From contig OY754987.1 of the NCBI GenBank assembly GCA_963576475.1, positions 5,182,036-5,246,035 of the forward strand: a DNA stretch of 64,000 nt, written 5' to 3'. This document shows, one piece after another, positions 3,106 through 49,060 of the stretch. The position numbers and the translations under genes are program-made. The notes under the pieces were generated by a model. That model did not search any database. It saw only the letters and a list, made by a program, of their open reading frames with translations, and had not been told where the DNA came from. Within the stretch, counting starts at the first letter, position 1; each line of letters begins with the position of its first letter. Source of the stretch: Molanna angustata. Taxonomy: Eukaryota > Arthropoda > Insecta > Trichoptera > Molannidae.

Positions 3106-3335
3106 CTGTTTTGTTGATGGCGAGACGCAAGGAAGTAAGTAGAGGTATAGCGGGGAGCCAGACGCACTCTTATACTGGCCGTACTGTAGTAAATAACTGG
3201 TTGACAATCTATCTGTGATAACTGTTTTGTTGATGGTGAGACGCAAGGAAGTAAGTAGAGGGACTCGAGGACAAGAAGTGGAAAACACAGCGGTCCTCCC
3301 GAACCATCCTGTCCGTCACGGGGGCGAAGGACAGT

Positions 3336-7237: not shown

Positions 7238-7376
7238 GGACCATGTTGATGGACACTCAATACCCAATAAAAATATAATAAAGGCAAATATAGTTACTGA
7301 CAATACTAAAAAACGGAACTACAACAGTGGTGAAGGATACATAAACCCTAACACTGGAAAAAATATCAATGATAAG

Positions 7377-17570: not shown

Positions 17571-19242
17571 TGACTGGCGCTACATCATATGAATTGGTGG
17601 TAATTTACTGCTCACATTTCGTGATGCAGCTCGAAAACTAGGACTAATCCACGACAACAGGGAATGGCATAATTGCATGGCAGAAGCGTCATCACATATG
17701 ATGCCTAGAGCTCTTCGAGATTTATTTGTATTATTAATGATTCATTGTCTCCCAACAGATCCATTGGAGCTGTGGAATGATTTCAAGAATTTAATATCAG
17801 AAGATTTTGTCCAGCGAGGAGCTACAGAAGAAGTTGCTGTTAATTGTTCACTTCTGTACATACAAAACGCACTAATGAAAGAAAATTCTTCTTGCAGTTA
17901 ACAAGGGTTGCCGGAACCAGATAGCAGCAGTGATTTTCATGAAATTGAAGATTTAAATGTTGTGTTAGAGTTTTCTTTGGGTGCTGAAATGGCAAATAAG
18001 CTTAATGATAACCAACGCAATGCATTTGAAGTTATTTCTTCCAAAGTATTTTCAGATGAACGTGATGGAAATAGATGTTTTTTCATCGATGGTCCTGGTG
18101 GAACAGGTAAAACTTTCCTTTACAAGACTCTTATACATACTTTAAGAGGAAGAGGAAAGAAAGTTTTATCCGTTGCTTGGACAGGAATTGCAGCTATTTT
18201 ACTTCCAGGTGGAGTGATGTGTCACACAGCTTTTAATTTACCTCTTGATTTACAGGATAATACTACTTGCAGAATTACCTCAAAGAACCGTAAAATTATA
18301 AAAAATGCTGACGTTATCAATGGGATGAAGCACCGATGGCTCCCGTAGTAGCCTTAGATATTATTGAACGTACTATTCGCGATATAATGGGTAATGATTA
18401 TATTTTTGGTAATAAAGTTATTGTTTTAGGCGGAGATTTTAGACAGATTCTTCCAGTTTGTCGTAGAGCCTCTCGCGGTCAATTAGTTGCAATGTCCATT
18501 AAAAATAGTAAACATTGGAGAAAATTTATTACCTTCCATTTAAAAACCAATATAAGAGCTTTAGAAGGGGAAAGCATATTTTCACAGTGGCTTTTAGATT
18601 TAGGTAATGGACAGCTTCCTTCTGTTGCAGGAAAGCAAGTCATCGGTGCTTATCCCAAATGATAGTGTTTGTCAAAATGTTATTCAAAGCATATACAATG
18701 AAAGTCATTCAGTTTCAGATGTACCAATAATGTGTAAACGAGCAATATTATGCCATAAAAATGATCATGCTAGAATGGTTAATGAAGATGTACTGGGAAG
18801 GCTACAAGGTACAATGCATACATACCATTTTTTAGATTATATTATTAATGACAGTGGTGAATTAGATGTAAATGAGCAAGTTAATTATCCAGTAGAATTT
18901 TTAAACAGTATAAATCCAAATGGTTTTCCGTTACACTCTTTAAATCTTAAAATTGGAGCAATCATAATCCTTCTCAGAAATTTATCTATCGGAGATGGCC
19001 TTTGTAATGGAACAAGAATGGTTGTAAAAAAATATGAGTACTAATATTACACAAGCAGAAATTGTAACAGGTGAAAAACAGGGAACGATACATTTCATTC
19101 CTCGCATTTGTTTAAATACATCATCTGATATAACAATACCTTTTAATATGTGGTGTAGAAAACAGTTTCCTAACAAATTAGCACTAGGGGCTCCTAGATG
19201 GGAATTCAGATGGGATGAGCCTTCATCCAGGAGTGGACGGGA
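17571..19242 (+). pseudogene. Helitron Rep/helicase remnant, PIF1-like helicase part
   Basis: It continues the gene above. 17571-17900 encodes KLGLIHDNREWHNCMAEASS... up to the helicase. 17908-18348 carries Walker A (FIDGPGGTGKTFLYK). 18336-18662 carries IVLGGDFRQILPV, a helicase motif. 18607-19044 carries the later helicase region (SVLIPNDSV...IGAIIILLRNLSIGDGLCNGTRM). The parts are in different frames; for example 18310-18345 lost the DEA box frame. The conserved KSQGQ motif after RKQFPNKLA is missing. It is a non-functional 5'-to-3' helicase. Confidence 0.8.
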
Positions 19243-19419: not shown

Positions 19420-20125
19420 CCTTTTAAGGCGCATGGACGTCTATGGTCCGACAGCATTTTTTTTTCCTTAAAGGAGTATGGACGTACAGGGTACGTCAAT
19501 GCGTATAATATAATAATGTCAAACTTTTAGTCGAAAAAGTGCATTGTACTGCCATCTGTTGGTAATATCATACAAGTTTTTTTCATTTGAAGATGTTTAT
19601 TGTTTTTACCGACTGAGATATTGAGCGTTAAAAATATCACGTGATCTAAAATACTTACCAATGTCAGATATCAGGGATCGTAAACTGTCGTTTTGCAACG
19701 CACGCGTTCACGCAATAATTTCGTTCTATTAACCGAAATATCTTCGTTAATTTTATAAAATTAGTGTTTTAATTTCGAATTTGTGTTTTTATCTCATAAA
19801 CTTGTTTGTTTATGAGATAAAATTAAATAAAATTAATAATTGTGTGATTTATGTGCTGATTTTACCGTTTCGTATTATTTTAGTTCACATATGAACTCGT
19901 GTTTTCAAATCGTTACGTTATAATATTGTTTTTTTATGTGATTTATGTGCTGATTTTACCGTTTCGTATTATTTTAGTTCACATATGAATTCGTGTTTTC
20001 AAATCGTTTAACGTTACAATATTGTGTTTTTTACTTTCAGAGACCTATTTTACGTTTTCAATCCGTTTTTGTACAATTTTTATATACTTTTCATATATAT
20101 TTTTGAACATTTATATTATTTCAAA

Positions 20126-21160
20126 ATGAGTTCACTTCGAGAAGACGAGATTACTGCTTTGTTGATGAATAGTGATAATGAGGATGAAATCATTGATTCT
20201 ATTGATAACATAGACGTCATGTTCAGTGATGAATCTTCATCGTCATCTGACAAAGAAGAAGAACTGGATCCAGGTACATCACAACCTCCAAGAGCCAAAC
20301 GCATGCGAGAAGAGGTCAGGAAGTGGAGTAATTCTGAGTTTACGCCATCACTTCATGAGTTTGACAATTTTCAGTCTGGAATAAAAGTCAATATGGATCT
20401 CGAAGACGAAAATCTCCAATTGAAATTTTTCGAACCAATATTTAATAATAATATTATAAATACTATTGTCTCCGAGACAAATATATATGCATCATCCAAC
20501 TCTGTTAATTCCTCTTCATCCAAAATGAAAAATTGGGTCGACACTACAGTGGGGGAAATTTACACATTTCTGGCCACCATTATTTTGATGAGCTTGGTGG
20601 GAAAGAACTCGATAAAAAAATATTGGAGTAACAATCCATTGATTGAAACACCTTTTATCAAAGCTTTGTTTTCACAAAATAGATTTTTGCTGATCTTGAG
20701 GAACCTTCATTTCGCAAGCCAAAACACGAACAATGATAGACTATACAAAATTAGAAATATTCTTGATCCTCTTCGAAAAATTATGGCTGAGGTATTTTAT
20801 CCCTACCAAAATTTATGCATTGATGAAAGTTTGGTGTTGTGGAAGGGGCGTCTCTCTTTTAAAATCTATATACCGTCAAAGAGATACCGATTTGGAATAA
20901 AAATGTTCGTGTGTTGTGACGTCAAGACGGGATATGTTCTTGATTTAATTGTTTACACAGGCTCTGACTCTGATTACGAAATTCACTCAGACGTGGGTAT
21001 ATCGGGATCAATAGTTCTGACACTTTTGAAAAAATATCTTGGTTGTGGTCATGGATTATACGTGGATAATTGGTACACTTCTCCAGCTTTATTCGACAGT
21101 CTTTTTGAAAACAAGACAAACGCTTGTGGGACAGTAAGAGCGAACAGAAAGAATGCCTAA
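20126..21160 (+). pseudogene. piggyBac-type transposase, N-terminal two thirds
   Basis: The ATG is at 20126; the upstream open frame lacks an ATG. The N-terminus is acidic and serine-rich (SSSSSDKEEELDPGTSQPP), as is usual. The DDE_Tnp_1_7 fold is seen from about residue 60. The first catalytic Asp is in NLCIDESLVLWKGR (about 20820) and the second in GLYVDNWYTSPALF (about 21064). A 1-nt frameshift at about 21153 ends the frame. The continuation (MPKFEKLKKGQVSSF...) lies in the next frame to a stop at 21303. Confidence 0.8.
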
Positions 21161-22694: not shown

Positions 22695-24181
22695 ATATCA
22701 TTAATAGCGAATAAAATTTGATTAATTCAAATCTCAAGGGCCTTTAATTCAGGTTTTAAGGTGTGTTATGAATTGAAAATAGGTACCTCCAGATTTTGGA
22801 TAAGTAAACAAAGCCACCTGCATGATATTGCATCATTATATTAGTTTGTCAACAAGTAAACATTCTAGAATATGCATTGGTGTATAATAAAGTATAAATT
22901 AGTAATTTGTTAATTATTAAATATTATTTAGGGAATTGGTCTCCTACTTAAAGCAAATATATTTATAGGTACTATGATAATTATCACCTTACTTGGTTTA
23001 ATGAGATGATGAGTGTTTGTGGGTTCAATGTCTGTAATTAGTGACCAGAAAAAATATTATGATTTACAACCATAAAATTATGTCAATACCGATCAGCGTT
23101 TTTGTAGTATTGACACATTCATATTTGAAATAAATGGTCACATGGCATCCTCACTCACTAATGTGAGGATTGGTCACGTGACATCCAATAGCAGAGTTGA
23201 GCTTTTGTCATGTGGCAGGACAGCATTTATATATAATTTTCATTTAAAATCTGTTTCAATAAACGGTTACTCGGCTCCAGCATCTTGGATGTGATTGAGC
23301 GTGTGACAGATAACGTTTATATATTTCCATGTGTAGTACTTTAAAATGGTTTTCACATGATTTCAAACTAATTTATTACAGAATCATGATCTACAGACGT
23401 TGTTCTTATGAATGTTCATTGTCTCATCAGGATATAACTTAAATCCGAATGTATTTTGAAACATGTAAAAATTAATTAACAATAAAAATAATAATTTGTG
23501 TACGCCACTGCGTGGCGTTTTATTGTTGAATTTGTGTATAAAAGGGATTGTTTGCCCTTAAATGAGTTAGTCTTCGTCAGAGTAGTAGTAGTCTTCAGTC
23601 TTCAGTAAACAATCTTCCAGTATTGGCTGGAAGAACACGAAAATTGTCTTTCATTTATAACCGATACCTTAGATTTACCAGAATTACCTAGGTGGACGTT
23701 TGAAAGAGAATCGTGGGTTTTGGGTTTCGATATTTGAGATAAGCCCAATGTTATTTGAATTGAAGTTTCTATTCTTTATTTGTACTGGCAAAAATACCAG
23801 TCGTATAATTTAGCTCCCAGCCGTGCTGTGTTTGAACGAACGCTGACTCTCCCTTGAGGCAGGTTCGTAACCAGACGGTGGTGGTTGAGCCTATAGCAGT
23901 TGGAGAACCTGCAAGGGTTCATCTACGACCAACTCGCTTTGCACTTCACTGTAGCTTCAACGAAAGCCAGCAATTATTAGTCGGGAAAAGAAGCAACTAA
24001 CGTCTCTGTGTAGACGTTATATACTCAAATTTTCCTACGTCATTAGAGTGACAGAAAGCGATCGGTCTTTGTGTTAATCGGCTTATATTTCGGTCTATTG
24101 GGGACGTTATATAGCCGGTTTTCTACCGGACCGAGTCAGCTGGGTTACTCTGATTGCGGTGGATTAATTTGAGGGAAAGAG
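22695..24181 (+). promoter_or_regulatory. Upstream segment of block A with a promoter-like region
   Basis: No coding sequence. Notable sites: AATAAACGGTTACTCGG (about 23258); a perfect hairpin CGCCAC-TGC-GTGGCG (23503-23517) followed by TTTTATT; a TATA box TATAAAAG (23537-23544); and about 55-60 bp downstream CTTCAGTCTTCAGTAAAC, which contains TCAGT words like arthropod initiators. A leader of about 600 nt follows before the viral frame. The segment is repeated at 28422 and 36885. Promoter function is inferred from sequence only. Confidence 0.45.
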
Positions 24182-27094
<2,913 letters not shown>

Positions 27095-28421: not shown

Positions 28422-29952
28422 TATCATTAATAGCGAATAAAATTTGATTAATTCAAATCTCAAGGGCCTTTAATTCAGGTTTTAAGGTGTGTTATGAATT
28501 GAAAATAGGTACCTCCAGATTTTGGATAAGTAAACAAAGCCACCTGCATGATATTGCATCATTATATTAGTTTGTCAACAAGTAAACATTCTAGAATATG
28601 CATTGGTGTATAATAAAGTATAAATTAGTAATTTGTTAATTATTAAATATTATTTAGGGAATTGGTCTCCTACTTAAAGCAAATATATTTATAGGTACTA
28701 TGATAATTATCACCTTACTTGGTTTAATGAGATGATGAGTGTTTGTGGGTTCAATGTCTGTAATTAGTGACCAGAAAAAATATTATGATTTACAACCATA
28801 AAATTATGTCAATACCGATCAGCGTTTTTGTAGTATTGACACATTCATATTTGAAATAAATGGTCACATGGCATCCTCACTCACTAATGTGAGGATTGGT
28901 CACGTGACATCCAATAGCAGAGTTGAGCTTTTGTCATGTGGCAGGACAGCATTTATATATAATTTTCATTTAAAATCTGTTTCAATAAACGGTTACTCGG
29001 CTCCAGCATCTTGGATGTGATTGAGCGTGTGACAGATAACGTTTATATATTTCCATGTGTAGTACTTTAAAATGGTTTTCACATGATTTCAAACTAATTT
29101 ATTACAGAATCATGATCTACAGACGTTGTTCTTATGAATGTTCATTGTCTCATCAGGATATAACTTAAATCCGAATGTATTTTGAAACATGTAAAAATTA
29201 ATTAACAATAAAAATAATAATTTGTGTACGCCACTGCGTGGCGTTTTATTGTTGAATTTGTGTATAAAAGGGATTGTTTGCCCTTAAATGAGTTAGTCTT
29301 CGTCAGAGTAGTAGTAGTCTTCAGTCTTCAGTAAACAATCTTCCAGTATTGGCTGGAAGAACACGAAAATTGTCTTTCATTTATAACCGATACCTTAGAT
29401 TTACCAGAAATACCTAGGTGGACGTTTGAAAGAGAATCGCGGGTTTTGGGTTTCGATAGTTGAGATAAGCCCAATGTTATTTGAATTGAACTGACCACAA
29501 AATCAGTCAACTGACCTGAATTGAACTGACCACAAGTTTCTATTCTATATTTGTACTGGCAAAAATACCAGTCGTATAATTTAGCTCCCAGCCGTGCTGT
29601 GTTTGAACGAACGCTGACTCTCCCTTGAGGCAGGTTCGTTACCAGACGGTGGTGGTTGAGCCTATAGCAGTTGGAGAACCTGCAAGGGTTCATCTACGAC
29701 CAACTCGCTTTGCACTTCACTGTAGCTTCAACGAAAGCCAGCAATTATTAGTCGGGAAAAGAAGCAACTAACGTCTCTGTGTAGACGTTATATACTCAAA
29801 TTTTCCTACGTCATTAGAGTGACAGAAAGCGATCGGTCTTTGTGTTAATCGGCTTATATTTCGGTCTATTGGGGACGTTATATAGCCGGTTTTCTACCGG
29901 ACCGAGTCAGCTGGGTTACTCTGATTGCGGTGGATTAATTTGAGCGAAAGAG
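28422..29952 (+). promoter_or_regulatory. Upstream segment of block B with TATA box
   Basis: Near-identical to 22695-24181. The hairpin CGCCAC-TGC-GTGGCG is at 29229-29243, TATAAAAG at 29263-29270, and the CTTCAGTCTTCAGTAAAC initiator-like words at about 29317-29334. No gene. Confidence 0.45.
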
Positions 29953-30369
29953 TTGCTTTCGCTGATTTTCCCAAAAGCGGACGTAACCTTAAAGAGAAGT
30001 CGTCGCGTTCGCTTCAAAGAAGGAGTATTAACAACAGGAAGCAAAAGTTTTAAACCCAAATATTGGTGGAATAGAATTTTAAATAATAAAGTTGCAGAAG
30101 CAACTATAGGAAATACATCATTTTATGCAACAGAAAATCTTATGCTAGTTAAATGTCCTTATGGTAATTATTTGGTATCCAGAGATCATTTATTAATTAT
30201 TTCAGACCTTGCCTCTCAACGATACTTATTAAAATTATACAGTATAATTTGTAATAATATGGAAGATCATGATTCATTTATAAATATTGATATTTTAGAT
30301 AAATTTTTGATCAATGGAGATTTAATATTAGAACATGCTGGAAATCTAGGGTATGAATATATATATATA
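29953..30369 (+). pseudogene. Viral L-polymerase copy B, N-terminal part
   Basis: Same sequence as 24182-24590, ending GGGTATGAATATATATATA where the Helitron-like element begins. The motifs LVSRDHLLIISDL and [12 protein letters not shown] correspond to the region before the RdRp in L proteins. The rest of this copy is at 33405-35378. Confidence 0.8.
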
Positions 30370-33300
30370 CTAGCTTTTATGTCCCGCCGTTGGCCAAGAA
30401 TGTAAAATTGTGAAAGAAAAAGCAATCGTTTTTATAATATTGTCACCCAATTATTTTGCAATATCAGACTATGAAAAGTGGTTTGAAATTTGATTGAGTT
30501 TAAGTATTGTTAAATGTTCAAGTGATGGCCACAACCCATTCTTTTTTATATATTGCTATAAAGTGTGAATGAAGTATAATATTTATACAATTTCTGCTCG
30601 CATAGACTATGCGTAATGGTTTTAAATATGACTGTTTATCAATGTTGTAAAGAGATTGGTTTGGCCACAACCCCCATTTTTAAATATTATCATCGAAAAT
30701 AAATTGTAATGTGTACCTATTGAAAATTTAGTAATTTTGGATGTTGTGATGTGGTTAAAATTTCATTAAACAAACGTAGGTACTGAATAGATCTAGTATT
30801 GGTCACATCCCATTCGTTTTTATATTTTTTCATCAAGTGTGCATTATATTTTTGCTCAATTTGACTGAAAGTCTTCATTAACGAAGAAGAAGAAGACTTG
30901 AACTATAGTAAATAGTTTTTAATTTGAATATAAATGTTGTGAAGAGTTCAGTAATGGCCACAACCCCCATTCTTTAAATATTAGGTGTTGAAAATTATTC
31001 AAAATAGGATGATATAAATGGTTTAAATTTAATTAAACAAAAGTATTGAAAAGATTCTAGTGCAGGTTATATCGTCACATCCCATATCCCATTCATTTCA
31101 TATGTATTTTCATCAAGTGTGCATATCGTTAATAATATTTCTGCACAATAGACTATTAGACTTAAAACTAACCCAAAAGACTAAATAAAAAAGAGAAAAA
31201 TAAGTATAAGACTATAAGAAATAGTTTGTATAAAAAACTATTCCAATGGTCTACATAAAATAAGTAAAAATACATATACCTAATAGAAGAATTAGACTAT
31301 TGGAAATAGATTGTATAAAAGCTCACCCAAAGGTCTACAAAAAAGAAGAAGAAGAATATTTAGACTATTGGAAATAGTTTGTATAAATACTGACCAAAAG
31401 GTCTACATAAAAGAAAATGAATAAGACTATTGGAAATAGTTTGTATTAAAACTCTCCCAAAAGTCTACGTACTTAAATGAAGAAGAATAATAATTAGACT
31501 AAAGGAAATAATTTTTATAAAAAAATGACCCAAATGTATACATAAAAGAAGAAGAAGATGAATTAGACAATAGGAAATAGTTTGTATAAAAACTGCCCTA
31601 AAGGTCTACATAAAATTAAGAAGAAAAAGAATTAGACTCCAGGACCCGCCGCTTCAGGCCCTTCAGTACCTCCCGTCCCTTTAATCCCTCATTACGTCCC
31701 TTCCCATCAGGCCCTTCAGTACCTTCCGTCCCTTCAGGCAGTTTTATACCTCCCGTCCCTTCAGGCCCTTTAGTGCCTCCCTTCCCTTCATTACATCCCG
31801 TCCCATCAGTCGGTTAAGAAAAGTTTAAATCCAGAAACCATCCTGGAAGAACCGCGAAGAGATGAAAGAACCTTCTTTTCCCAGGATGCTCTACTTAATA
31901 GGTAAAATGACTAAATACACGAAGAAGAAGAAAAAAGTTTAAACCCAGATACCTGCGAAGAGATGGAAGGACAGTTGGACCTTCTTCTCCCAGGATTCTC
32001 CAACTTCATAGGTAAAATGACCAAAAATACACGATGAAGAAGAAGAAGGAGAAATAAGTTTAAATCCAGATACCTGCGAAGAGATGGAAGGAAAATTGGA
32101 CGTTCTTCTCCCAGGTTAGTCCACCTTCAAAGGTAAAATGACCAAATAGACGATGAAGAAGAAGAAGAAAAAAGTTTAAATCCAGAAACCTGCGAAGAGA
32201 TGGAAGGAAAATTGGACCTTCATCTCCCAGGATAGTTCATCTTCATAGGTAAGATGACCAAGTACACGTTGAAGAAAAAGAAGAAAAAAGTTTATATGCA
32301 GAACCCGTCCTGGAAGACCTGTGAAGAGATGGAGGGACAGTCGGACCTTCTTTTCCCAGGATACTCCCCCTTCATAGGTAAAACGACCAAATACACGAAG
32401 AAGAAGAATAAGAAAAAAGTTTAAATCCAAAAACCATCCTGGGCATACGCTCGACAATTCACCAAAGTTTCATTATAATCGGACAAACGGTTGATAAATA
32501 AATAAATAAAATAATTTTCCTATAGGAAATCAGTATAGGTATACTATTGTTGATTTGTAAGTAAATAGTATTAGGTAGGTACCTACCTACAACAACCTTC
32601 TAAATAAATTCGATTCCTAACAAATTTTATTTGAATATCACATTCTTTCTGTAGCCATGGAAACGATTCGAACACGTAAGTAATATCGAATGGTTCGGAT
32701 ACATTTTTTGAATATGTAGGTACCTACATTGGTTTGTTCGATGCCATAAAAATGAAAATTGTCCGAAATATCAAATATTATATACAAATTATGCAATTTT
32801 ATTATGCCCATATCTTTACTAATAATTAACAGACTTTTACAATATACGTCTTAAAACTTGCTGTAATGTCTTGTGTTTCATTTTATTATTTCATATTTAT
32901 ATTTATTTCAAAGGTTTATTATTTTCAAGAACATATTCATTCGGTAGGAAAATGAAATATTGTATGAAAAGATATTAAAATGGCGGCATTTATGTACAAA
33001 ACGCTTACTTTAAAAATAAGTTAAACATTATAATTATACAAAATATTCACCATGTTTTTCACTTAAACGCTAAGTTATACTTGAAAGTAAATTTTTTTCG
33101 TGTAAATACGTACTTCTAACTTTTAAACTAACAGATATATGCGTGCAAAATGTACACTTTTTTGACAGATACGACTTGGAAAATTTTGTATGAAAAAAAT
33201 AATTATTGAAATATTTTTAAAATTCAGCATTTTTATCGCATTATTTTTAGCGTGACACTGCATCAGGTATACAGGTACACATTCGCACATAAATTAGATT

Positions 33301-33404
33301 TTTAGATGCTCTTGGTTTTTCAGAAGGCGTGAGACAAACACACACACACATACACACACACACACACACAAACACTAACATTTTGATTGCTTTATTACTT
33401 TAGA
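30370..33404 (-). mobile_element. Non-autonomous Helitron-like element, copy 2, inserted in viral copy B
   Basis: Same ends as 11216-15606 (CTAGCTTTTATGTCCCGCCG on the left, CTTTATTACTTTAGA on the right of the plus strand). The host on both sides is the viral TA tract: ...TATATA on the left and TATAAGATGG on the right. Comparison with the uninterrupted copies shows insertion between A and T without loss or duplication. The internal repeats are as in copy 1 but not expanded. Confidence 0.72.
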
Positions 33405-33410
33405 TATAAG

Positions 33411-35378
33411 ATGGAACCATCTGCATTAAGTAGACTAGTTGGAGACATAAAAATAGGTTCAATTCCAGAAGAAAGAAAAACCTTCAAAGAAATCATGAGA
33501 GAAGAAACCGACAAGATTGCAAACGAATTAAATATCGAAAATCTTCATTTAGAGCGCGAAGAACTGTTAGACTACATAGCAGAAAAACCCCATTTATTAT
33601 CTCAGCTATATGGATTATATAGAATATGGGGTCATCCTACTCTAGAACCATGTGATAGAGCAATAGCTTTAAAAAAGATTGCAACTTACGTGAGACTTTT
33701 ATGTCAAGAACTTATAGATCAAATAGAGTGTAAGTTTAAAGAAGAATTCATAATGAGATATATATCAAAATATAACAAATGGCCAATCATAAACATAGAT
33801 AGACTTATGCCAAATGATGTAATTAGGATTTGTTATGAAAAACAATTGCCATTCCCAAAAATAGATAGATTCTATAATAGAGGAAATTTGACTCTTATTT
33901 CCTTTGAGAAAACTTTTCCTGTTGACCCCAAATTTGACATAATTGAGATGTTATCAGACAAATCCATGTCTCTGTTCACAGATGAATTGATCAAAAGTAT
34001 AAATGAAGAGAGAGGAGTTGGCAATGCCATAGACAGATCTGTATTGATTAAATGGATTGAATCTGATCTTCAAGATCCTGAGATCTTTTTAAGAGACATT
34101 GATGTGAATGGTTTTAAATATAATGAGAGATCATTTGGGGTAAAAGAGAAAGAAAGGGAGGGTAAATCAAAACTTAGACTCTTTGGATTAATGACAATGT
34201 ACAAGAGAATGTATATTGTCTTAACAGAATCTCTAATAGCAGAATATTTTGTACCATTATTTCCAGAGATTACTATGGTAGATGACGAATTCTCTCTAGA
34301 TAAAAAGAGAATGAACTTCACCAAAACAGCCATGAATGATAAAAAACATGACTATCAACATGCAAATGACTACAACTCAGAAAAAAGAACACTGTTTACG
34401 AGTCTAGATTTCTCAAAGTGGAACTCCAACATGAGAGAACCTGACACTGAACCTGTCTTTAAGGCAATGGACGAGCTTTTTGGATTTAAAAGATGTTTCC
34501 AAAGGACTTATGAGTTATTTAACTCATCTACTGCTCATCTCCTAAATGGATCATATATCCCAAAAGTTCAGAACGGACAATTCATTCCAGATGCAGGTTC
34601 TTGGCAGGGTCATTTGGGAGGAATTGATGGTTTGAGACAGAAGGGTTGGACAATATGGACTATTACAATAATTTTACTATCTTCTGAAGAAATCCCAGTA
34701 AAATTAAGTATTATGGGGCAAGGAGATAATCAGATATTACGTGAAATTTACCCTATAGGCACAACTCCAGATCAAGCTCTGGAATATCACCATGATTTCA
34801 TCAAAAAATTAAAAGACATTCTTGAATTAACTGGTCCCTCTTTAAAAACAGAGGAGACATGGACATCCTATAATTTATTTATTTATGGTAAGTATATCAT
34901 CTATAATGGATGTGCATTACCTATGTCAGGTAAAAAAATATGCAGAATGTTCCGCTTATCTAATGAGGATTTTCCAACATTGGAGTCCACCATCTCATCA
35001 CTAACTGCTAATCTATCAGCTGCCATCTCAAGTGCTTTATCTCCGAATTATTTATATTATATATATTTAATAGAACTTGTAGGAGTATTTCAATTATTTT
35101 TAAACAATAGTTTTCTTCAAAAACATCCCCCTAGTTTGTCATTAAGTAATAGATTCTTATTAAAAATACCAACAAATGACATATATAAAACCATCAAATT
35201 AGAAAATCTATTACTAAATAGACAAACTCAGACTGATAATTGTATTATAAAGTTAATTCTATTACCCAGACCATTAGGTGGATACCCCATATCCAACTTG
35301 CACAAATTGTATGTATATATTTTTCAAAAGGACGAGAAGAATCTCTTAGAGCAGCATCCTCAAGAAACACAATTTTGA
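33411..35378 (+). CDS. Viral L-polymerase copy B, RdRp part
   Basis: 655 codons from the internal ATG at 33411 to the stop in Helitron sequence. Motif A Asp at residue 333 (34407), motif B about residues 395-415, GDNQ at residues 438-441 (34722-34733). No internal stop. It differs from copy A by only a few substitutions, such as Asp-Gly to Asp-Arg in the LEPCD region and Leu to Ile after TIWTIT. The N-terminal part is separated from it by the Helitron. Confidence 0.85.
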   Translation: MEPSALSRLVGDIKIGSIPEERKTFKEIMREETDKIANELNIENLHLEREELLDYIAEKPHLLSQLYGLYRIWGHPTLEPCDRAIALKKIATYVRLLCQELIDQIECKFKEEFIMRYISKYNKWPIINIDRLMPNDVIRICYEKQLPFPKIDRFYNRGNLTLISFEKTFPVDPKFDIIEMLSDKSMSLFTDELIKSINEERGVGNAIDRSVLIKWIESDLQDPEIFLRDIDVNGFKYNERSFGVKEKEREGKSKLRLFGLMTMYKRMYIVLTESLIAEYFVPLFPEITMVDDEFSLDKKRMNFTKTAMNDKKHDYQHANDYNSEKRTLFTSLDFSKWNSNMREPDTEPVFKAMDELFGFKRCFQRTYELFNSSTAHLLNGSYIPKVQNGQFIPDAGSWQGHLGGIDGLRQKGWTIWTITIILLSSEEIPVKLSIMGQGDNQILREIYPIGTTPDQALEYHHDFIKKLKDILELTGPSLKTEETWTSYNLFIYGKYIIYNGCALPMSGKKICRMFRLSNEDFPTLESTISSLTANLSAAISSALSPNYLYYIYLIELVGVFQLFLNNSFLQKHPPSLSLSNRFLLKIPTNDIYKTIKLENLLLNRQTQTDNCIIKLILLPRPLGGYPISNLHKLYVYIFQKDEKNLLEQHPQETQF

Positions 35379-38381: not shown

Positions 38382-39377
38382 CCAACTGTCGATTTGTTCA
38401 GGAGAACTTTGATCTCTTAACATATCGACAATGTATCAAGCCAGAATACGCGAGAATTGTATGGAGAGGTCTACTTTTTTCACGGCTTTTCCAACTTTGA
38501 AGTCAAAAAAAACCAACTTAGAGGCTTCGCAGCATATATGTTCCATACACGGATTTACTCAGAATTCGGAGTAGAACATTTCGTGTGTCTGTGTCTGTGT
38601 GTGTGTCCGTCCCCCCCTTATAACTTTTGATCCGCTCAATTTACAGAGCCTAAAATTTCAGAATATATAAACAGTTACAGGCCTACAAAACTTTTATACT
38701 CGGAATTTTGAATTTTTGTTTCAGTCAGGGGTTATCAACTTTTGAATTTTTATTTTATTTTTCCATATATCTCAGAAACCATAAACGTTAGAACGCTGAA
38801 AATTGGTACAAACATAGACAAATACGAAATCTCAAATTAGTTTTTTCAAAAAAATTCCAGGGTTTCTCAAACATTTTTTATTAAGAAAAATATTTTTTTT
38901 ATGATAAATTTATGAGTTTAACTGCCTATATTTCCAAAACTTTTACAATTATCGAAAAAAGCCGAAACACCCCAACTAGATAATTTAATTTTCTATAAAA
39001 AATATTAACATTGTAGTAGAAGATCTCAATTTTTTTTTAACAATTTTTTTAAAAATTGAATTTAGTGACGACATCGCTTCATACATTTTGTATGGCAGTC
39101 GCCTATACACAATATGTAAGAAGACTTAATAGTTTGATACTTCATCTCCAAACATACATACATACCATCATGCTATTTGCATATTCTGGGTAGGAAAAAG
39201 GATCTTCCTCCATACTATCCTATCTTGACATACATACCTACATATGTTGTATAAAAAACAAAATATCTGAAAATATTCAATAATTTGTATCTATGGGTTT
39301 ATAGTTTGGTACATATTCTTCAACTATACATACTATCGCTATCGACAGTTGGATCTCATGTGTTACATGCAACTAGT
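38382..39377. mobile_element. Unclassified 996-bp insertion in viral copy C
   Basis: The uninterrupted copies read straight from AAAACTATT to GTTTAAAAAT here. The insert has CCAACTGTCGAT at its left end (38382-38393) and the reverse complement ATCGACAGTTGG at 39341-39352, 25 bp before its right end. It contains a GTGTGTCTGTGTCTGTGTGT run, C-runs, and phrases seen in insect repeats (CCCTTATAACTTTTGATCC). No ORF worth calling. Confidence 0.6.
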
Positions 39378-41072
39378 GTTTAAAAATAATTGAAATACTC
39401 CTACAAGTTCTATTAAATATATATAATATAAATAATTCGGAGATAAAGCACTTGAGATGGCAGCTGATAGATTAGCAGTTAGTGATGAGATGGTGGACTC
39501 CAATGTTGGAAAATCCTCATTAGATAAGCGGAACATTCTGCATATTTTTTTACCTGACATAGATAATGCACATCCATTATAGATGATATACTTACCATAA
39601 ATGAATAAATTATAGGATGTCCATGTCTCCTCTGTTTTTAAAGAGGGACCAGTTAATTCAAGAATGTCTTTTAATTTTTTGATGAAATCATGGTGATATT
39701 CCAGAGCTTGATCTGGAGTTGTGCCTATAGGGTAAATTTCACGTAATATCTGATTATCTCCTTGCCCCATAATACTTAATTTTACTGGGATTTCTTCAGA
39801 AGATAGTAAAATTAGTGTAATAGTCCATATTGTCCAACCCTTCTGTCTCAAACCATCAATTCCTCCCAAATGACCCTGCCAAGAACCTGCATCTGGAATG
39901 AATTGTCCGTTCTGAACTTTTGGGATATATGATCCATTTAGGAGATGAGCAGTAGATGAGTTAAATAACTCATAAGTCCTTTGGAAACATCTTTTAAATC
40001 CAAAAAGCTCGTCCATTGCCTTAAAGACAGGTTCAGTGTCAGGTTCTCTCATGTTGGAGTTCCACTTTGAGAAATCTAGACTCGTAAACAGTGTTCTTTT
40101 TTCTGAGTTGTAGTCATTTGCATGTTGATAGTCATGTTTTTTATCATTCATGGCTGTTTTGGTGAAGTTCATTCTCTTTTTATCTAGAGAGAATTCGTCA
40201 TCTACCATAGTAATCTCTGGAAATAATGGTACAAAATATTCTGCTATTAGAGATTCTGTTAAGACAATATACATTCTCTTGTACATTGTCATTAATCCAA
40301 AGAGTCTAGGTTTTGATTTACCCTCCCTTTCTTTCTCTTTTACCCCAAATGATCTCTCATTATATTTAAAACCATTCTCATCAATGTCTCTTAAAAAGAT
40401 CTCAGGATCTTGAAGATCAGATTCAATCCATTTAATCAATACAGATCTGTCTACGGCATTGCCTACTCCTCTCTCTTCATTTATACTTTTGATCAATTCA
40501 TCTGTGAACAGAGACATGGATTTGTCTGATAACATCTCAATTATGTCAAATTTGGGGTCAACAGGAAAATTTTTCTCAAAGGAAATAAGAGTCAAATTTC
40601 CTCTATTATAGAATCTATCTATTTTTGGGAATGGCAATTGTTTTTCATAACAAATCCTAATTACATCATTTGGCATAAGTCTATCTATGTTTATGATTGG
40701 CCATTTGTTATATTTTGATATATATCTCATTATGAATTCTTCTTTAAACTTACACTCTATTTGATCTATAAGTTCTTGACATAAAAGTCTCACGTAAGTT
40801 GCAATCTTTTTTAAAGCTATTGCTCCATCACATGGTTCTAGAGTAGGATGACCCCATATTCTATATAATCCATATAGCTGAGATAATAAATGGGGTTTTT
40901 CTGCTATGTAGTCTAACAGTTCTTCGCGCTCTAAATGAAGATTTTCGATATTTAATTCGTTTGCAATCTTGTCGGTTTCTTCTCTCATGATTTCTTTGAA
41001 GGTTTTTCTTTCTTCTGGAATTGAACCTATTTTTATGTCTCCAACTAGTCTACTTAATGCAGATGGTTCCAT
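39363..41072 (-). CDS. Viral L-polymerase copy C, RdRp part (inverted)
   Basis: Antisense frame of 569 codons from ATG 41072, carrying the same motifs A, B and C (LDFSKWN, GSWQGHLGGIDGLRQKGW, GDNQ) with no stop until the insertion. It shares with copy D two changes in the middle of the gene, DIDEN instead of DIDVN and KPRLF instead of KLRLF. Its 5' part agrees with copy B instead. Confidence 0.85.
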   Translation of the reverse strand: MEPSALSRLVGDIKIGSIPEERKTFKEIMREETDKIANELNIENLHLEREELLDYIAEKPHLLSQLYGLYRIWGHPTLEPCDGAIALKKIATYVRLLCQELIDQIECKFKEEFIMRYISKYNKWPIINIDRLMPNDVIRICYEKQLPFPKIDRFYNRGNLTLISFEKNFPVDPKFDIIEMLSDKSMSLFTDELIKSINEERGVGNAVDRSVLIKWIESDLQDPEIFLRDIDENGFKYNERSFGVKEKEREGKSKPRLFGLMTMYKRMYIVLTESLIAEYFVPLFPEITMVDDEFSLDKKRMNFTKTAMNDKKHDYQHANDYNSEKRTLFTSLDFSKWNSNMREPDTEPVFKAMDELFGFKRCFQRTYELFNSSTAHLLNGSYIPKVQNGQFIPDAGSWQGHLGGIDGLRQKGWTIWTITLILLSSEEIPVKLSIMGQGDNQILREIYPIGTTPDQALEYHHDFIKKLKDILELTGPSLKTEETWTSYNLFIYGKYIIYNGCALSMSGKKICRMFRLSNEDFPTLESTISSLTANLSAAISSALSPNYLYYIYLIELVGVFQLFLNTSCM

Positions 41073-41267
41073 CTTATATATATATATTCATACCCTAGAT
41101 TTCCAGCATGTTCTAATATTAAATCTCCATTGATCAAAAATTTATCTAAAATATCAATATTTATAAATGAATCATGATCTTCCATATTATTACAAATTTT
41201 ACTGTATAATTTTAATAAGTATCGTTGAGAGGCAAGGTCTGAAATAATTAATAAATGATCTCTGGAT
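41073..41267 (-). pseudogene. Viral L-polymerase copy C, N-terminal part with short TA tract
   Basis: The antisense reading runs from SRDHLLIISDL to [12 protein letters not shown], then a TA tract of a few units, then the RdRp part. The TA count here puts the two parts in different frames. It is cut at 41267 at the centre of the inverted duplication. Confidence 0.8.
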
Positions 41268-41277
41268 ACCTGATCTC

Positions 41278-43202
41278 TGGGTTCAATTCCAGAAGGAAGA
41301 AAAACCTTCAAAGAAATCATGAGAGAAGAAACCGACAAGATTGCAAACAAATTAAATATCGAAAATCTTCATTTAGAGCGCGAAGAACTGTTAGACTACA
41401 TAGCAGAAAAACCCCATTTATTATCTCAGCTATATGGATTATATAGAATATGGGGTCATCCTACTCTAGAACCATGTGATGGAGCAATAGCTTTAAAAAA
41501 GATAGCAACTTACGTGAGACTTTCATGTCAGGAACTTATAGATCAAATAGAGTGTAAGTTTAAAGAAGAATTCATAATGAGATATATATCAAAATATAAC
41601 AAATGGCCAATCATAAACATAGATAGACTTATGCCAAATGATGTAATTAGGATTTGTTATGAAAAACAATTGCCATTCCCAAAAATAGATAGATTCTATA
41701 ATAGAGGAAATTTGACTCTTATTTCCTTTGAGAAAAATTTTCCTGTTGACCCCAAATTTGACATAATTGAGATGTTATCAGACAAATCCATGTCTCTGTT
41801 CACAGATGAATTGATCAAAAGTATAAATGAAGAGAGAGGAGTAGGCAATGCCATAGACAGATCTGTATTGATTAAATGGATTGAATCTGATCTTCAAGAT
41901 CCTGAGATCTTTTTAAGAGACATTGATGAGAATGGTTTTAAATATAATGAGAGATCATTTGGGGTAAAAGAGAAAGAAAGGGAGGGTAAATCAAAACCTA
42001 GACTCTTTGGATTAATGACAATGTACAAGAGAATGTATATTGTCTTAACAGAATCTCTAATAGCAGAATATTTTGTACCATTATTTCCAGAGATTACTAT
42101 GGTAGATGACGAATTCTCTCTAGATAAAAAGAGAATGAACTTCACCAAAACAGCCATGAATGATAAAAAACATGACTATCAACATGCAAATGACTACAAC
42201 TCAGAAAAAAGAACACTGTTTACGAGTCTAGATTTCTCAAAGTGGAACTCCAACATGAGAGAACCTGACACTGAACCTGTCTTTAAGGCAATGGACGAGC
42301 TTTTTGGATTTAAAAGATGTTTCCAAAGGACTTATGAGTTATTTAACTCATCTACTGCTCATCTCCTAAATGGATCATATATCCCAAAAGTTCAGAACGG
42401 ACAATTCATTCCAGATGCAGGTTCTTGGCAGGGTCATTTGGGAGGAATTGATGGTTTGAGACAGAAGGGTTGGACAATATGGACTATTACACTAATTTTA
42501 CTATCTTCTGAAGAAATCCCAGTAAAATTAAGTATTATGGGGCAAGGAGATAATCAGATATTACGTGAAATTTACCCTATAGGCACAACTCCAGATCAAG
42601 CTCTGGAATATCACCATGATTTCATCAAAAAATTAAAAGACATTCTTGAATTAACTGGTCCCTCTTTAAAAACAGAGGAGACATGGACATCCTATAATTT
42701 ATTTATTTATGGTAAGTATATCATCTATAATGGATGTGCATTACCTATGTCAGGTAAAAAAATATGCAGAATGTTCCGCTTATCTAATGAGGATTTTCCA
42801 ACATTGGAGTCCACCATCTCATCACTAACTGCTAATCTATCAGCTGCCATCTCAAGTGCTTTATCTCCGAATTATTTATATTATATATATTTAATAGAAC
42901 TTGTAGGAGTATTTCAATTATTTTTAAACAATAGTTTTCTTCAAAAACATCCCCCTAGTTTGTCATTAAGTAATAGATTCTTATTAAAAATACCAACAAA
43001 TGACATATATAAAACCATCAAATTAGAAAATCTATTACTAAATAGACAAACTCAGACTGATAATTGTATTATAAAGTTAATTCTATTACCCAGACCATTA
43101 GGTGGATACCCCATATCCAACTTGCACAAATTGTATGTATATATTTTTCAAAAGGACGAGAAGAATCTCTTAGAGCAGCATCCTCAAGAAACACAATTTT
43201 GA
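41278..43202 (+). CDS. Viral L-polymerase copy D, RdRp part
   Basis: Begins abruptly at GGTTCAATTCCAGAAG at the centre of the inverted repeat, without the N-terminal part. The frame from ATG 41319 is 627 codons and open to the Helitron junction; all RdRp motifs are present. It carries GSIPEGRKTF and DKIANK, small changes relative to the other copies. Confidence 0.85.
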
Positions 43203-43488: not shown

Positions 43489-44649
43489 CAAAGAGCTTAC
43501 TGGACTTTTCAGAGACGCGGACAGCATAGATGAAACGGAAAATGGAGGAATTGCAAGATAACAAGAGCGTAGACCAGTGCCCCGTTCTACCATCATACTT
43601 TTCAACTTAAAGCTTTGCACTTCGCAATACGTCGGCAAAAAATGTAGTGATGGTTTTCATTCCATCACTACATTTTTTCGCAAAGTAAAAATTGCAAAGT
43701 GAAAAGTAGAAGCCTATTGCAAAGCAAATAAGCCGTTCTGTTCCACCATTACTACTTTTCATAAAAAAACTTTGGAAACTTTGCGGATGCATCGAAAAGA
43801 ATATTTAGACATTTTGTCGAGTTGTGAAAGTAGAAGTTGTTTGTATAGACTTTTTATGTAAATTTATAATACTATTGTAACGGACAACATTGGACCACCA
43901 CAAGATACCACATTTTCAGAAGAGAAAAACTAGAAGAGCATCAATGTTTGGAAAAATTGAAAATAATTTTGAAATGAGGAAATATTATGTCCTGTTACAA
44001 AAGATTAACATAATAGGTACAATCAGTGTTTACCTATTATGTGTCTTGAGTAAGTACACGATTTTCCAATATATTCTTATTTTTTTAGGTAATTTAAACT
44101 ATGTTTATGTGATTATTTTCTTCTCATTTTAAGTTTATCTGATTATTTTACTACTCATCTATATTTTAAGGTTATATTGGCACCACACTGCAGAACAGCA
44201 CTAAGAGAAGCAAAGGATTGTCTCTTCAACAGCAACTTCTTTTAACATTGCATTGGCTTGGGAATGGTGTGCAAATGCATGGTATTGGAGCAATACATGG
44301 TGTTTCCAAGTCCACAGTATGTAGAACTAAAGACTTCGTCATCAGCGCTATAATCGATAACATACTTAACCAGCATGTGAAATATGGTCATCATCTCAAA
44401 ATGTTGCATCTGAGTTTTTGGGAAAAGGAGGCTTTCCATCGGTGTGTGGGTGTGTTGATGGTACATTGATCAAAATTGATGCTCCATACTCACAAAAAGA
44501 GTTATATGTGAATCGTCATGGAAAACACTCCTTAAATGTGATGGTGATTTGTGGGCAAATGCATGGTATTGGAGCAATACATGGTGTTTCCAAGTCCACA
44601 GTATGTAGAACTAAAGACTTCGTCATCAGCGCTATAATCGATAACATAC
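43489..44649 (+). pseudogene. PIF/Harbinger transposase, 5' part, with internal duplication
   Basis: The hairpin region (about 43640-43675) and leader are as in the other blocks. Here the match continues past GGCTTGGGAATG into QLLLTLHWLGNGVQMHGIGA and IHGVSKSTVCRTKDFVISAI, the helix-turn-helix part of HARBI1-like nucleases. It then runs to FPSVCGCVDGTLIKIDAPYS (first catalytic Asp, DGT) in another frame. A 284-bp segment (44271-44554) is repeated from 44555, and a gypsy element sits in the second copy. The gene resumes at 48252. Confidence 0.75.
44271..44649. repeat. 284-bp tandem duplication in the Harbinger gene
   Basis: GCAAATGCATGGTATTGGAG starts at 44271 and 44555. The second unit is split by the gypsy element after ATAACATAC and continues at 48252. 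The second unit lacks 6 bp (GATGGT) relative to the first near its end. Confidence 0.85.
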
Positions 44650-44853
44650 TGTTATGAAATTAAGTACTATTTAAAATTTAAATAGAAATATTTTGAAAAT
44701 AAGAACCCAAGAAAAATGAAAACAAAAGATTTGAGTAGTGAGTTGGAAAAACTAGACAAACCTTGTAAAAATATAAATTGTAGAAATATAAATTGTAAAA
44801 AATAAATAAGACTTTGAACCATAATAAAATAAATAAATATAAATTTCGGTACA
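44650..44853 (+). repeat. Gypsy 5' LTR (204 bp)
   Basis: TG...CA ends; AT-rich; lacks 12 bp present near the start of the 3' LTR. The following Pol frame opens inside it. Confidence 0.9.
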
Positions 44854-47800
44854 TATGGTGTTCACCAGTAGTGTTAGTTAAAAAAAAAGATGGCTCAACT
44901 CGGTTCTGTGTGGACTTTCGCTTATTGAATAATGTAACTAAGAAGGATAGTTATCCACTGCCTCGAATCGATGACACCCTAGATACATTGGCTGGTTGTA
45001 AGATCTTCTCAACTTTGGATCTAAAGAGTGGTTATTGGCAGGTTGGATTGGAACCCAAGGATAGAGAAAAAACGGCGTTTTCTGTAGGAAGTGGATTGTG
45101 GCAATTCAAAGTGATGCCATTTGGACTTTGCAATGCACCGGCTACGTTTGAACGACTAATGGAAAGTGTGCTAAGAGGATTATCGTGGGAGACCTGTTTG
45201 GTATACTTAGATGACATCATCGTACTTGGGAAGCGTTTTGAAGAACATTTAGGAAATTTGGAACAGGTATTTTCACGATTGAGGTCGGCCAACCTTAAAC
45301 TCAATTGCAAGAAATGTATATTGTTCCGAAAGCAAGTCAACTATCTAGGTCATGTTGTCTCTGAGGAGGGAGTAGCAGTAGATCCTGAGAAGATTAAAGC
45401 TGTTCGAGATTGGCCAGTACTTAAAGACAAACATGAAGTAAGAAGCTTTTTGGGTCTGAGTACCTACTATCGACGATTTGTTCCAGGCTTTGCTGACATC
45501 GCAAAGCCACTGACAAAACTCACGGAGGAAAGCAGTGAATTCATATGGGATTTCAAGTGCCAACATGCATTTGAAGAATTAAAACAGGTTCTAATTAATT
45601 CTCCGGTTTTGAGTTATCCTCGAGCTGAAGGAATGTTTATTCTGGATACAGATGCAAGTAACGTTGGTATCGGAAGTGTGCTCTCCCAAGTACAAGATGG
45701 GGCAGAACGCGTGATTGCTTACTTCAGTAAAGTATTGTCGAAACCAGAACGCAATTACTGTGTAACACGAAGAGAATTGCTTGCTGTTATCAAGTCAGTT
45801 GAGCACTTTCGCAAGTATTTATATGGACGGAAATTTCTTTTAAGGACAGATCACTCGGCACTTGTGTGGCTTTTGCGATTCAAGAATCCTGAAGGTCAAG
45901 TGGCAAGATGGATAGAGAGATTGCAAGAATATGACTATGATTCTGAACATCGAGCCGGACTTCATCATAGAAATGCCGATGCACTGTCAAGGCGACCATG
46001 TCCAGAGGATTGCCAGCACTGTAATAAGGCTGAGGAAAAGTTTTTTATAGCTTGTAGAACCACGGTCGTTGACAATTTTTGGCAAGATGATGAAATACGA
46101 GCAGACCAATTGGAAGACCCAGATCTCAAGTTTGTAATGCAGTGGAAGGAAAATGATCAAAGACCTTTATGGGAAGAAATAGCTTCACTATCTCCAAATA
46201 TTAAGTCATACTGGGCTCAGTGGCAATCCATTGTCGTGGAAAATGGGTTGTTAAAGCGTGTATTGGAGAATGAAGATGGAACACAGCAGAGACAACAACT
46301 ATTGATTCCAAGGAAGAGAATTCCTGAAGTTCTTAAACTGCTTCACAATGATGTGTCTGGGGGACACTTGGGAGTTAAAAAAACCACAGAAAAAATTCGT
46401 CAACGTTTTTATTGGGTCAATTACAATGGAGATGTAAAAGATTGGTGTAGAAGATGTGTAACTTGTGCCACTTCAAACGGACCTCAGAAACGAAGGCGTG
46501 CGCCAATGAGGCAGTATAATGTTGGTAGCCCATTTGAAAGGATAGCCATTGACATAGCGGGGCCGTTTCCCACAACGGAAAGAGGGAATAAATATATTCT
46601 GGTAGCAATGGACTATTTTAGTAAATGGACAGAAGCCTATGCACTACCGAATCAAGAAGCTACCACTGTTGCTGAAGTCTTGGTAAGGGAACTGATAAGT
46701 CGTTTTGGAGTACCATTGGAGTTACACTCGGACCAGGGAAGAAACTTTGAATCAGCCGTATTCCAGGGAATTTGTGAAGCATTAGGAATTCGAAAGACGA
46801 GAACAACTGCTTTGCATCCACAGTCGGATGGAATGGTGGAGCGAATGAATCGAACAATTGGAAGATTTTTGTCAAAAGCAGTGTCCGATCACCAGAAGGA
46901 TTGGGACGAATACATCCACTTGTTCTTATTAGCTTATCGAGCAGCAATTCATGAGACAACAGGGCAAACACCGGCAAGTGTGATTTTTGGCCGTGAGTTA
47001 CGGTTACCTTGCGACCTGCAGTATGGATCTAAGCCTGGAGAAGATCTAGTTGGAGAAGATTATGTGTCAGATCTTCGGAGGAAAATGAATGCTATACATG
47101 ACCGTGTACGGTCCAATATTCAAGTAGCTAGTGACAAGATGAAGGAGCGATACGACATTAAAGCTGTGGAAGGTGGTTATCAGGCTGGAGACTTGGTTTG
47201 GTTATTTAATCCACAACGACGACGAGGCTACTCACCAAAGCTTCAGAAATCCTGGGAAGGACCGTATGAAGTGATCAAAAGGATTAATGATGTGGTTTAT
47301 CGTATACGAAGAAAACCAAATGGGAAGCCAAGAGTGGTACATTTCAATCGCCTGGCTCCCTTTTTAGGTGATAACAAGGATGAGGAAAAAAATCCAGTTG
47401 CTCAAGTTTGCAATGTCCAAAGTGAAGAAAAGACCTTCGAGGAATTCATGATGACTCCTTATCGACGCACTCGCCATGGTGTGACTGTGGAAATTGAGCA
47501 AGACCTCTTCGATATCCCAGAAGATAATGTTTTAGCTTACTGTGTGGCTCAAGACATGAAGATGACTAGTGGTATAGCCAAAGTTATCATGAGAAAGTAT
47601 GGGATGTTATATGAGCTAAAAGCCAAGAATCTGAAGATTGGAGAAGCGGTCCATTCACAGCATGGAAAACAGCATTTATTCTACATGACGAATAAGGAAA
47701 CGTCTGAGGAACGAGCAGAGTATGCTCAGATGTGGAACTGTCTACGAAGTATGCGGGATCAAATGTTACAGTTGAATCTTATGAAGCTCGGCATTCCAAA

Positions 47801-48020
47801 GATCAGTGATGGTATGGATTGGAAAGTGGTTCGGAATATGATAGAAGAGATTTTTCATAATACTGGAATTAATGTTCTAGTTTGCTGCTATAATCCAAGA
47901 TACAGTAAAAATATAAAAAAAAGTGTACCATGTTACTTTTTCAAAGCATCTCACTGTAGAGAAGGTTCAAAATGCCGATTTATTCATCTAGAGAATTCTG
48001 TTCGGGACGAACTGAACTAA
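44814..48020 (+). CDS. Gypsy Pol (RT, RNase H, integrase) with C-terminal macro domain and CCCH zinc finger
   Basis: 1,068 codons are open from inside the 5' LTR (no ATG start, because the 5' part is deleted). RT: from [28 protein letters not shown] (Asp 133-134, 45210). RNase [12 protein letters not shown] and the DALSRR end. Integrase: HHCC finger ([13 protein letters not shown]), catalytic Asp580, Asp640, Glu676 (spacing 59 and 35). GPY/F-like module: SWEGPYEVI (about 814). Then a macro domain at about 890-1025 ([38 protein letters not shown]). Last, a CCCH finger, C-x7-C-x5-C-x3-H at 1040-1058. The closest recognised relative of the macro domain is TARG1/OARD1, a (ADP-ribosyl)glutamate hydrolase; the Lys in TNKE and the Asp in GMDW sit where its catalytic residues are. 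Confidence 0.9.
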
Positions 48021-48031
48021 GAGGGAGGCAG

Positions 48032-48247
48032 TGTTATGAAATTAAGTACTATTTCTATTTAAATTGAAAATTTAAATAGAAATATTTTGAAAATAAGAAC
48101 CCAAGAAAAATGAAAACAAAAGATTTGAGTAGTGAGTTGGAAAAACTAGACAAACCTTGTAAAAATATAAATTGTAGAAATATAAATTGTAAAAAATAAA
48201 TAAGACTTTGAACCATAATAAAATAAATAAATATAAATTTCGGTACA
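48032..48247 (+). repeat. Gypsy 3' LTR (216 bp)
   Basis: Same as the 5' LTR apart from a 12-bp insertion (TTCTATTTAAATTG region). It is preceded by a purine tract. Confidence 0.9.
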
Positions 48248-49060
48248 ATACTTAACCAGCATGTGAAATATGGTCATCATCTCAAAATGTTGCATCTGAG
48301 TTTTTGGGAAAAGGAGGCTTTCCATCGGTGTGTGGGTGTGTTGATGGTACATTGATCAAAATTGATGCTCCATACTCACAAAAAGAGTTATATGTGAATC
48401 GTCATGGAAAACACTCCTTAAATGTGATTTGTGGGCCAAATTATCAGATTTTTGCTGTGAATGCAAACTGGTCTGGAAGCACCAATGATTCCAGAGTGAT
48501 ACGTAATTCACCACTACACCAAATTTTTGAAACTGGTTAACGACCGTTCCCAAGTAATTCATATTGGATATTTTTGTAAAAGGTCTAAAAATTATGATCA
48601 TAGGTATCTATGTAAAATGAATTTTGAGTGAAATACAAATAATTAAAAATGTGATTGTTACAGGCGCTGCCATACTGGGAGATTCAGCATACGCTCTAAG
48701 AGAGTGGTTGATTCCACCAATCAACCGCAATCCTGATGATCCATAAGAGCACGAGAAGGCTAGTTGAAAATACCATAGGTATAATGAAGGTAAAATTTCC
48801 ACATCTTAATCATCTTCGTCTGCAGCCTACGAAAGCTGCTAAAGTTGCACTAACATGTGTTATCTTGCACAATGTTGATAGAACAGTTTGCAGACAATGA
48901 GGATTATTTGGAAAACTCTCCAATGGGGAATATTTCTGCAGATGAAATAGATGTCGAAGAGGTTGATGAGTCATCACCGACCACTAGCGCTTTTCGTAGG
49001 CTAAATTCCTTATTGGCATATTTCAATACATGACATGTTCATTCAATTTTAAAAAGCGAC
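48248..49060 (+). pseudogene. PIF/Harbinger transposase, 3' part
   Basis: It continues the gene split at 44649. GCVDGTLIKIDAPYSQKELY, then VNRHGKHSLNV (the following Met-Val lost), then SGSTNDSRV with the second catalytic Asp. A GT-AG intron of 128 bp (48536-48663) separates IFETG from AAILGDSAYALREWLIPPIN. After a frame change, STRRLVENTIGIMK carries the catalytic Glu, followed by KAAKVALTCVILHNV. The order matches HARBI1-type nucleases. Frame changes near 48725 and after 48890 make it inactive. Confidence 0.8.

Follow-up and report, generated by a model that had tools for sequence, protein, structure and literature searches.

A Ty3/Gypsy retrotransposon of Molanna angustata carries a TARG1-type macro domain and a CCCH zinc finger behind its integrase

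Introduction

Chromoviruses are Ty3/Gypsy elements that carry a chromodomain at the C-terminus of integrase, after the GPY/F module (PMC3605345). Macro domains are known from other reverse-transcribing elements, namely teleost endogenous retroviruses with macro-domain open reading frames (Basta et al, 2009, cited in PMC4977317). An endogenous shrimp nimavirus also has a macro-domain protein (PMC7016691), and the Macro match in PMC11642819 belongs to an aphid RNA virus. Among cellular macro domains, TARG1/OARD1 (C6orf130, terminal ADP-ribose glycohydrolase) hydrolyses mono-ADP-ribose and reaches damage sites when overexpressed (PMC4695847). Of eight mobile elements with a significant change in parp-1 mutant Drosophila, five rose; three of these eight belong to the gypsy superfamily. 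Ten more, nine of them gypsy, rose below the cut-offs, and the authors allow that the effect may be indirect (PMC7712786). Here we describe a Ty3/Gypsy Pol with a TARG1-type macro domain in a 64,000-nucleotide stretch of the trichopteran Molanna angustata (assembly GCA_963576475.1, contig OY754987.1, positions 5,182,036 to 5,246,035). This whole stretch is referred to as the window, and all coordinates are counted along it.

The element shares with chromoviruses the presence of an extra module after GPY/F, but a macro domain and a CCCH finger replace the chromodomain, which a Pfam scan of the window Pol at E values up to 1 failed to identify. It resembles the teleost retroviruses in being a reverse-transcribing element that bears a macro domain. 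Whereas the fish elements have an additional, separate macro open reading frame, here the domain lies in frame at the end of Gypsy Pol, with the polypurine tract at the stop codon. In comparison with TARG1 itself, the domain is fused to integrase, has a deletion in the catalytic loop and is followed by the CCCH finger. Identity to DarG, a bacterial DNA ADP-ribosyl glycohydrolase that serves as an antitoxin, is 16-19% over the three best DarG entries. We identified no report of a Gypsy integrase-macro fusion in the literature searched, a coverage that leaves out most subscription journals, and the word "macro" is absent from the main text of a study of retroid agents in fish published in 2007 (PMC2684134).

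We read the locus as a 5′-deleted copy of a recently transposing Ty3/Gypsy element whose integrase-tethered macro module would bind or erase ADP-ribose near the integration complex, and assign this mechanism a probability of about one half. The identity of the element as a macro-bearing Ty3/Gypsy retrotransposon is close to certain. A tethered ADP-ribose module is favoured because of its chromodomain-like position, the rise of elements in parp-1 mutants, and the hydrolytic activity and damage-site recruitment of TARG1. Chromatin-reading modules on integrases are known in the form of chromodomains; an ADP-ribose module at this place would tie integration or silencing to PARP signalling, and a TARG1-type domain on a Gypsy element adds to the macro open reading frames of fish retroviruses. 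Since the family is young and has open full-length Pol frames, biochemistry and insertion mapping could test such a link.

The Pol frame continues into a TARG1-type macro domain

The coding part of the element and its 3′ end comprise the following features.

44799-48017, + strand: Pol open reading frame, 1073 codons from stop to stop
44877-45356, + strand: reverse transcriptase with YLDD at 45204, N-terminal part missing (RVT_1, E 2.8e-36)
45546-45932, + strand: RNase H (RT_RNaseH_2 and RT_RNaseH)
46305-46811, + strand: integrase zinc-binding and core domains (Integrase_H2C2, rve)
47259-47360, + strand: GPY/F-like integrase C-terminal domain (Integrase_p58_C, E 2.3e-13)
47493-47882, + strand: TARG1/OARD1-type macro domain, residues 894-1023 matching human TARG1
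47919-47990, + strand: CCCH zinc finger C-x7-C-x5-C-x3-H, residues 1036-1059 (zf-CCCH and sequence)
48019-48031, + strand: polypurine tract (AAGAGGGAGGCAG), overlapping the stop codon (sequence)
48032-48247, + strand: 3′ long terminal repeat (LTR), 216 bases (sequence)

The Pfam order within this frame is reverse transcriptase, RNase H, integrase zinc-binding domain, core and GPY/F-like domain, with RVT_1, RT_RNaseH, Integrase_H2C2, rve and Integrase_p58_C all above their cut-offs. Among proteins of known structure, Ty3 Gag-Pol is the nearest (E 1.6e-124). The integrase triad (D580, D640 and E676) shows the usual 35-residue D-35-E spacing. The first in-frame ATG is found only at 45114. After the GPY/F-like domain some 200 further residues, referred to here as the tail, continue in the same frame. 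This tail was open in none of 20000 base shuffles, and the same fusion recurs in all 150 scored genomic copies and in P0001, a protein of a separate 990-base contig in which integrase end, macro domain and CCCH finger occupy one frame with four differences in 241 residues; chance is therefore no fair reading. The tail is part of the element, since the Pol stop codon (48018) and the polypurine tract overlap and are followed by the 3′ LTR from 48032 onwards.

Residues 894-1023 matched human TARG1 in phmmer (E 6e-18, 68 bits) at approximately 30% identity, and comparison of the tail by hhalign with a profile of 17 OARD1 proteins gave a probability of 99.3. The tail also matched PHROG 335, annotated "phosphatase" (3.2e-14). 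The general Pfam Macro model gave 14.3 bits, below its cut-off of 22, yet the same model reached merely 27.2 bits on a named OARD1 protein (P0003). The zf-CCCH model, whose cut-off is 20.5 bits, scored 21.2 bits when the tail was scanned by itself and 18.5 bits, below the cut-off, on the whole protein. Thus the main claims of an earlier note, made from the sequence alone, have held up: a Gypsy Pol, an uninterrupted frame through the tail, a TARG1/OARD1-like macro domain (though with Pfam Macro below its cut-off) and a C-x7-C-x5-C-x3-H finger before the stop.

In a ranked structure comparison the predicted fold of the tail, modelled from an alignment that included OARD1 rows, was closest to TARG1 and then nearer to DarG than to viral macro domains. 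This ranking bears on the proposal that the protein, free or borne on Pol, acts in the cytoplasm against host antiviral ADP-ribosylation, as in RNA viruses, with no link to integration. The fusion to integrase and the lack of a separate reading frame also speak against such a role, which we regard as highly improbable.

The macro domain would derive from the capture of a TARG1/OARD1-like gene. A query alignment that included TARG1 retrieved 818 proteins, and among the 120 listed the named ones other than P0001 were mostly OARD1-like. In a tree the element's domain, on a branch of 3.43, forms a weakly supported group (83/84) with the OARD1 rows and a few rows from viral contigs. A search of the tail region against 5.8 billion proteins, restricted to proteins of Pol-like length with short words in common with Pol, returned 147 candidates with none at E 1e-3, whereas the search with the tail alone gave P0001 as the sole match among 69 candidates. 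Pol had no match in viral contigs, and phage records gave none either. In the viral-contig collection, 85 of 99 pattern matches encode TARG1-like proteins, and the 80 that were kept (L003-L082) are 31-49% identical to OARD1.

Within the M. angustata genome (995 Mb in 131 contigs), the best 150 of 483 candidates found with OARD1 P0003 all showed 30-31% identity and extended as far as the element's tail does, and each of the 12 that were fetched proved to be a tail copy. The degenerate canonical TARG1 pattern P-R/K-I-G-C-G-L-D had no match in the genome, a search that a spliced or diverged host OARD1 could escape. The Pfam Macro model matched three stretches, the best of which is of MACROD type.

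Near-identical copies and relatives with gag-length frames

We scored the best 43 of 5594 candidates from the genome search with Pol and the best 150 of 547 from that with the tail, samples in which decayed copies are under-represented. All 43 Pol copies were stop-free and 100% identical over residues 15-1068 (1-1068 for the window copy), and 34 of them lie within 1412-codon frames. Likewise, all 150 tail copies were open and 100% identical, several of them in short frames. The genome thus contains at least 150 near-identical copies, and this near identity identifies a recently spread, high-copy family. The two LTRs of the window copy differ by one 12-base length difference and no substitution, in line with the young LTRs described earlier. 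The suggestion that active relatives keep the macro domain is supported as far as recently spread relatives carry it: the 150 best-ranked copies all retain the tail.

The full-length relatives with gag that the earlier note had proposed to seek were found: each of the two copies examined upstream contains an LTR and a gag-length frame that overlaps the pol frame. One of them (L091), the sole relative scanned for domains, has an aspartic protease above cut-off in its pol and a gag of 399 codons (1947-3143 of that locus) that starts with a SAP domain (E 1e-7, above cut-off). Its Ty3_capsid match was 16.3 bits, below the cut-off of 29.1, and a CCHC knuckle is apparent at the end by sequence. SAP is a DNA-binding module that we did not expect in Gag. 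Directly after the LTR both relatives have a TGG... stretch, a candidate primer-binding site; the window contains no tRNA gene.

The short frames, of 217 or 248 codons, raised the candidate of a derivative consisting of the tail only. This was rejected, as the seven loci of these classes (L116-L122, among 12 of 30 loci displayed) have the reverse transcriptase end, integrase and linker upstream; the short frames therefore stem from small indels. That several copies have the 217- or 248-codon frame in common suggests inherited indels near the integrase-macro linker, and hence sub-lineages with a separated macro-CCCH frame.

Active site and possible role in integration

Two positions of the macro domain correspond to what we take to be the catalytic pair of TARG1, Lys84 and Asp125.

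47694-47696, + strand: Lys codon at the place of TARG1 Lys84 (alignments)
47817-47819, + strand: candidate Asp codon for TARG1 Asp125, in a loop three residues shorter (aligned in some alignments)

Lys961 of the element aligns to Lys84 in every alignment made, and a lysine occupies this column in all 34 OARD1 rows and all 81 viral-contig and bacterial rows. Asp1002 pairs with Asp125 in the phmmer and MAFFT alignments. Of the intact pair claimed earlier, then, the lysine stands, but the aspartate is weakened by its displacement in hhalign. The OARD1 rows comprise 30 named vertebrate proteins and four unnamed ones, with no invertebrate OARD1 knowingly included; 29 of the 68 columns with at least 90% agreement among them are unchanged in the element. 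The viral-contig rows were chosen by the motifs P[RK]IGCGLD or [DE][AS]LAHCIS, and those columns therefore look more invariant than they truly are; one of 82 viral-contig and bacterial rows, six residues long, was removed before the count, and near-identical rows were retained. The element keeps 20 of the 37 columns that are conserved among the OARD1 rows as well as among the viral-contig and bacterial TARG1-like rows.

We propose that the macro domain rides on integrase at the place taken by the chromodomain in chromoviruses and that, in the nucleus, it would bind, and probably remove, ADP-ribose on proteins or on DNA ends close to the integration complex. Neither integration nor expression would then be blocked by PARP-driven marks at breaks or in silenced chromatin. 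The proposed ligand of the CCCH finger is RNA, which may be that of the element itself or chromatin-associated. The more specific version, in which the TARG1-type domain strips PARP-made ADP-ribose from the ends of the element's cDNA or from chromatin at the insertion site, is tentative and somewhat doubtful; if true, reversal of ADP-ribosylation would be a step of retrotransposon integration.

Several observations weigh against this proposal. The loop bearing the aspartate is three residues shorter, and the hhalign gap falls before this residue, displacing Asp1002 from Asp125; a catalytic role of Asp1002 is therefore only a candidate one. The other 17 of the 37 doubly conserved columns are changed, including those of Gly41, Thr83, Pro91, Gly121 and Cys122. 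The fold model built without an alignment was uninformative (predicted local distance difference test score, pLDDT, of 40), and the CCCH part of the fold model, from tail residue 180, had a pLDDT below 50. The short DNA preference of insertions described below requires no macro domain, and the copies are too similar to reveal selection. With 20 of 37 columns kept, 17 changed and a candidate aspartate, the domain may bind and hydrolyse ADP-ribose or may bind it alone.

In the latter case catalysis would be lost and the domain would only tether the integration complex to ADP-ribosylated chromatin or breaks, as a chromodomain does to histones. The position in Pol is that of the chromodomain (PMC3605345), and the shortened loop of the presumed catalytic Asp and the several changed conserved residues in a retained predicted fold suit a reader of this kind. 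Retention of Lys84 and a nearby Asp speaks against it. Directly after the 3′ LTR, ATAT was found in 23 of 38 loci and ATA followed by any base in 30 of 38, and these flanks point to a sequence preference at the target; the ATAT preference is compatible with a chromatin reader but requires none. We consider a purely reading function rather unlikely.

The tail could also be a functionless captured fragment of a very young family, spread because the 3′ sequences that it adjoins are essential. The scored copies are near identical, so that youth alone explains persistence of the frame, and many residues conserved in the family are changed. However, retention of the frame, Lys84 and 29 of 68 OARD1 columns at approximately 30% identity is unexpected under neutral change unless most of that change preceded capture, and we judge such a passenger improbable. 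Comparisons among copies bear on the same question. Across eight loci including the window copy, which differ from it by 0-4 bases in 3162, all eight changes are synonymous, as are all seven variant tail positions in 38 loci; similarity to the window protein determined the ranking in these two samples. A further 12 loci, ranked by likeness to OARD1, gave two synonymous and 15 non-synonymous codon changes with gapped codons excluded. Because every sample is biased by its ranking, we claim no ratio of non-synonymous to synonymous rates.

The truncated copy and its insertion site

The remaining boundaries of the window copy are given below.

44646-44649, + strand: target-site duplication ATAC, left copy (sequence)
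44650-44853, + strand: 5′ LTR (TG...CA), 204 bases (alignment to 3′ LTR)
48248-48251, + strand: target-site duplication ATAC, right copy (sequence)
44262-44545, + strand: duplicated stretch (284 bases) of the interrupted transposase-like gene with the same target site uninserted (repeat families D1 and D3)

The window copy is devoid of gag, protease, primer site and the reverse transcriptase N-terminus and is therefore not autonomous itself. Its 5′ LTR runs almost straight into reverse transcriptase, and the match to the Ty3 reverse transcriptase chain 4ol8 opens at residue 100 of that chain (query residue 16). The relatives' 1412-codon frames align to the window Pol from its residue 15; approximately 358 codons, covering protease and the reverse transcriptase N-terminus, are thus gone from the window copy, together with gag and the primer-site region. 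Two relatives have TTTGGTGTCAGAAGTGGGG directly after the LTR, and the one relative displayed has CCATGGTGTTC within reverse transcriptase. The deletion junction of the window copy falls at the TGGTGT common to TTTGGTGTCAGAAGTGGGG and CCATGGTGTTC, and the deletion would fit a slip during reverse transcription.

The element is inserted inside a transposase-like gene (HTH_Tnp_4, E 6.4e-6, 26.1 bits, just below the cut-off of 27), presumably of PIF/Harbinger type. The tandem duplicate at 44262-44545 with its empty integration site may be real or a merged empty allele.

Other elements in the window

Matches to the Mononegavirales polymerase (L) were identified at 24173-27091, 29944-30402 (below cut-off), 33387-35375, 39366-41087 (− strand) and 41274-43199. 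These five stretches represent an endogenous viral element that has multiplied within the window. Two of them belong to an inverted repeat that is at least 1 kb long and shows 99% complementarity. A frame pair resembling a non-LTR retrotransposon spans 5438-10982, with DUF4780 in the first frame and endonuclease, reverse transcriptase and RNase H in the second. We also identified an IS1595-like stretch at 2179-3102 (DDE_Tnp_IS1595), a DDE_Tnp_1_7 match at 20012-21157 and a PIF1-helicase-like frame at 17902-18345.
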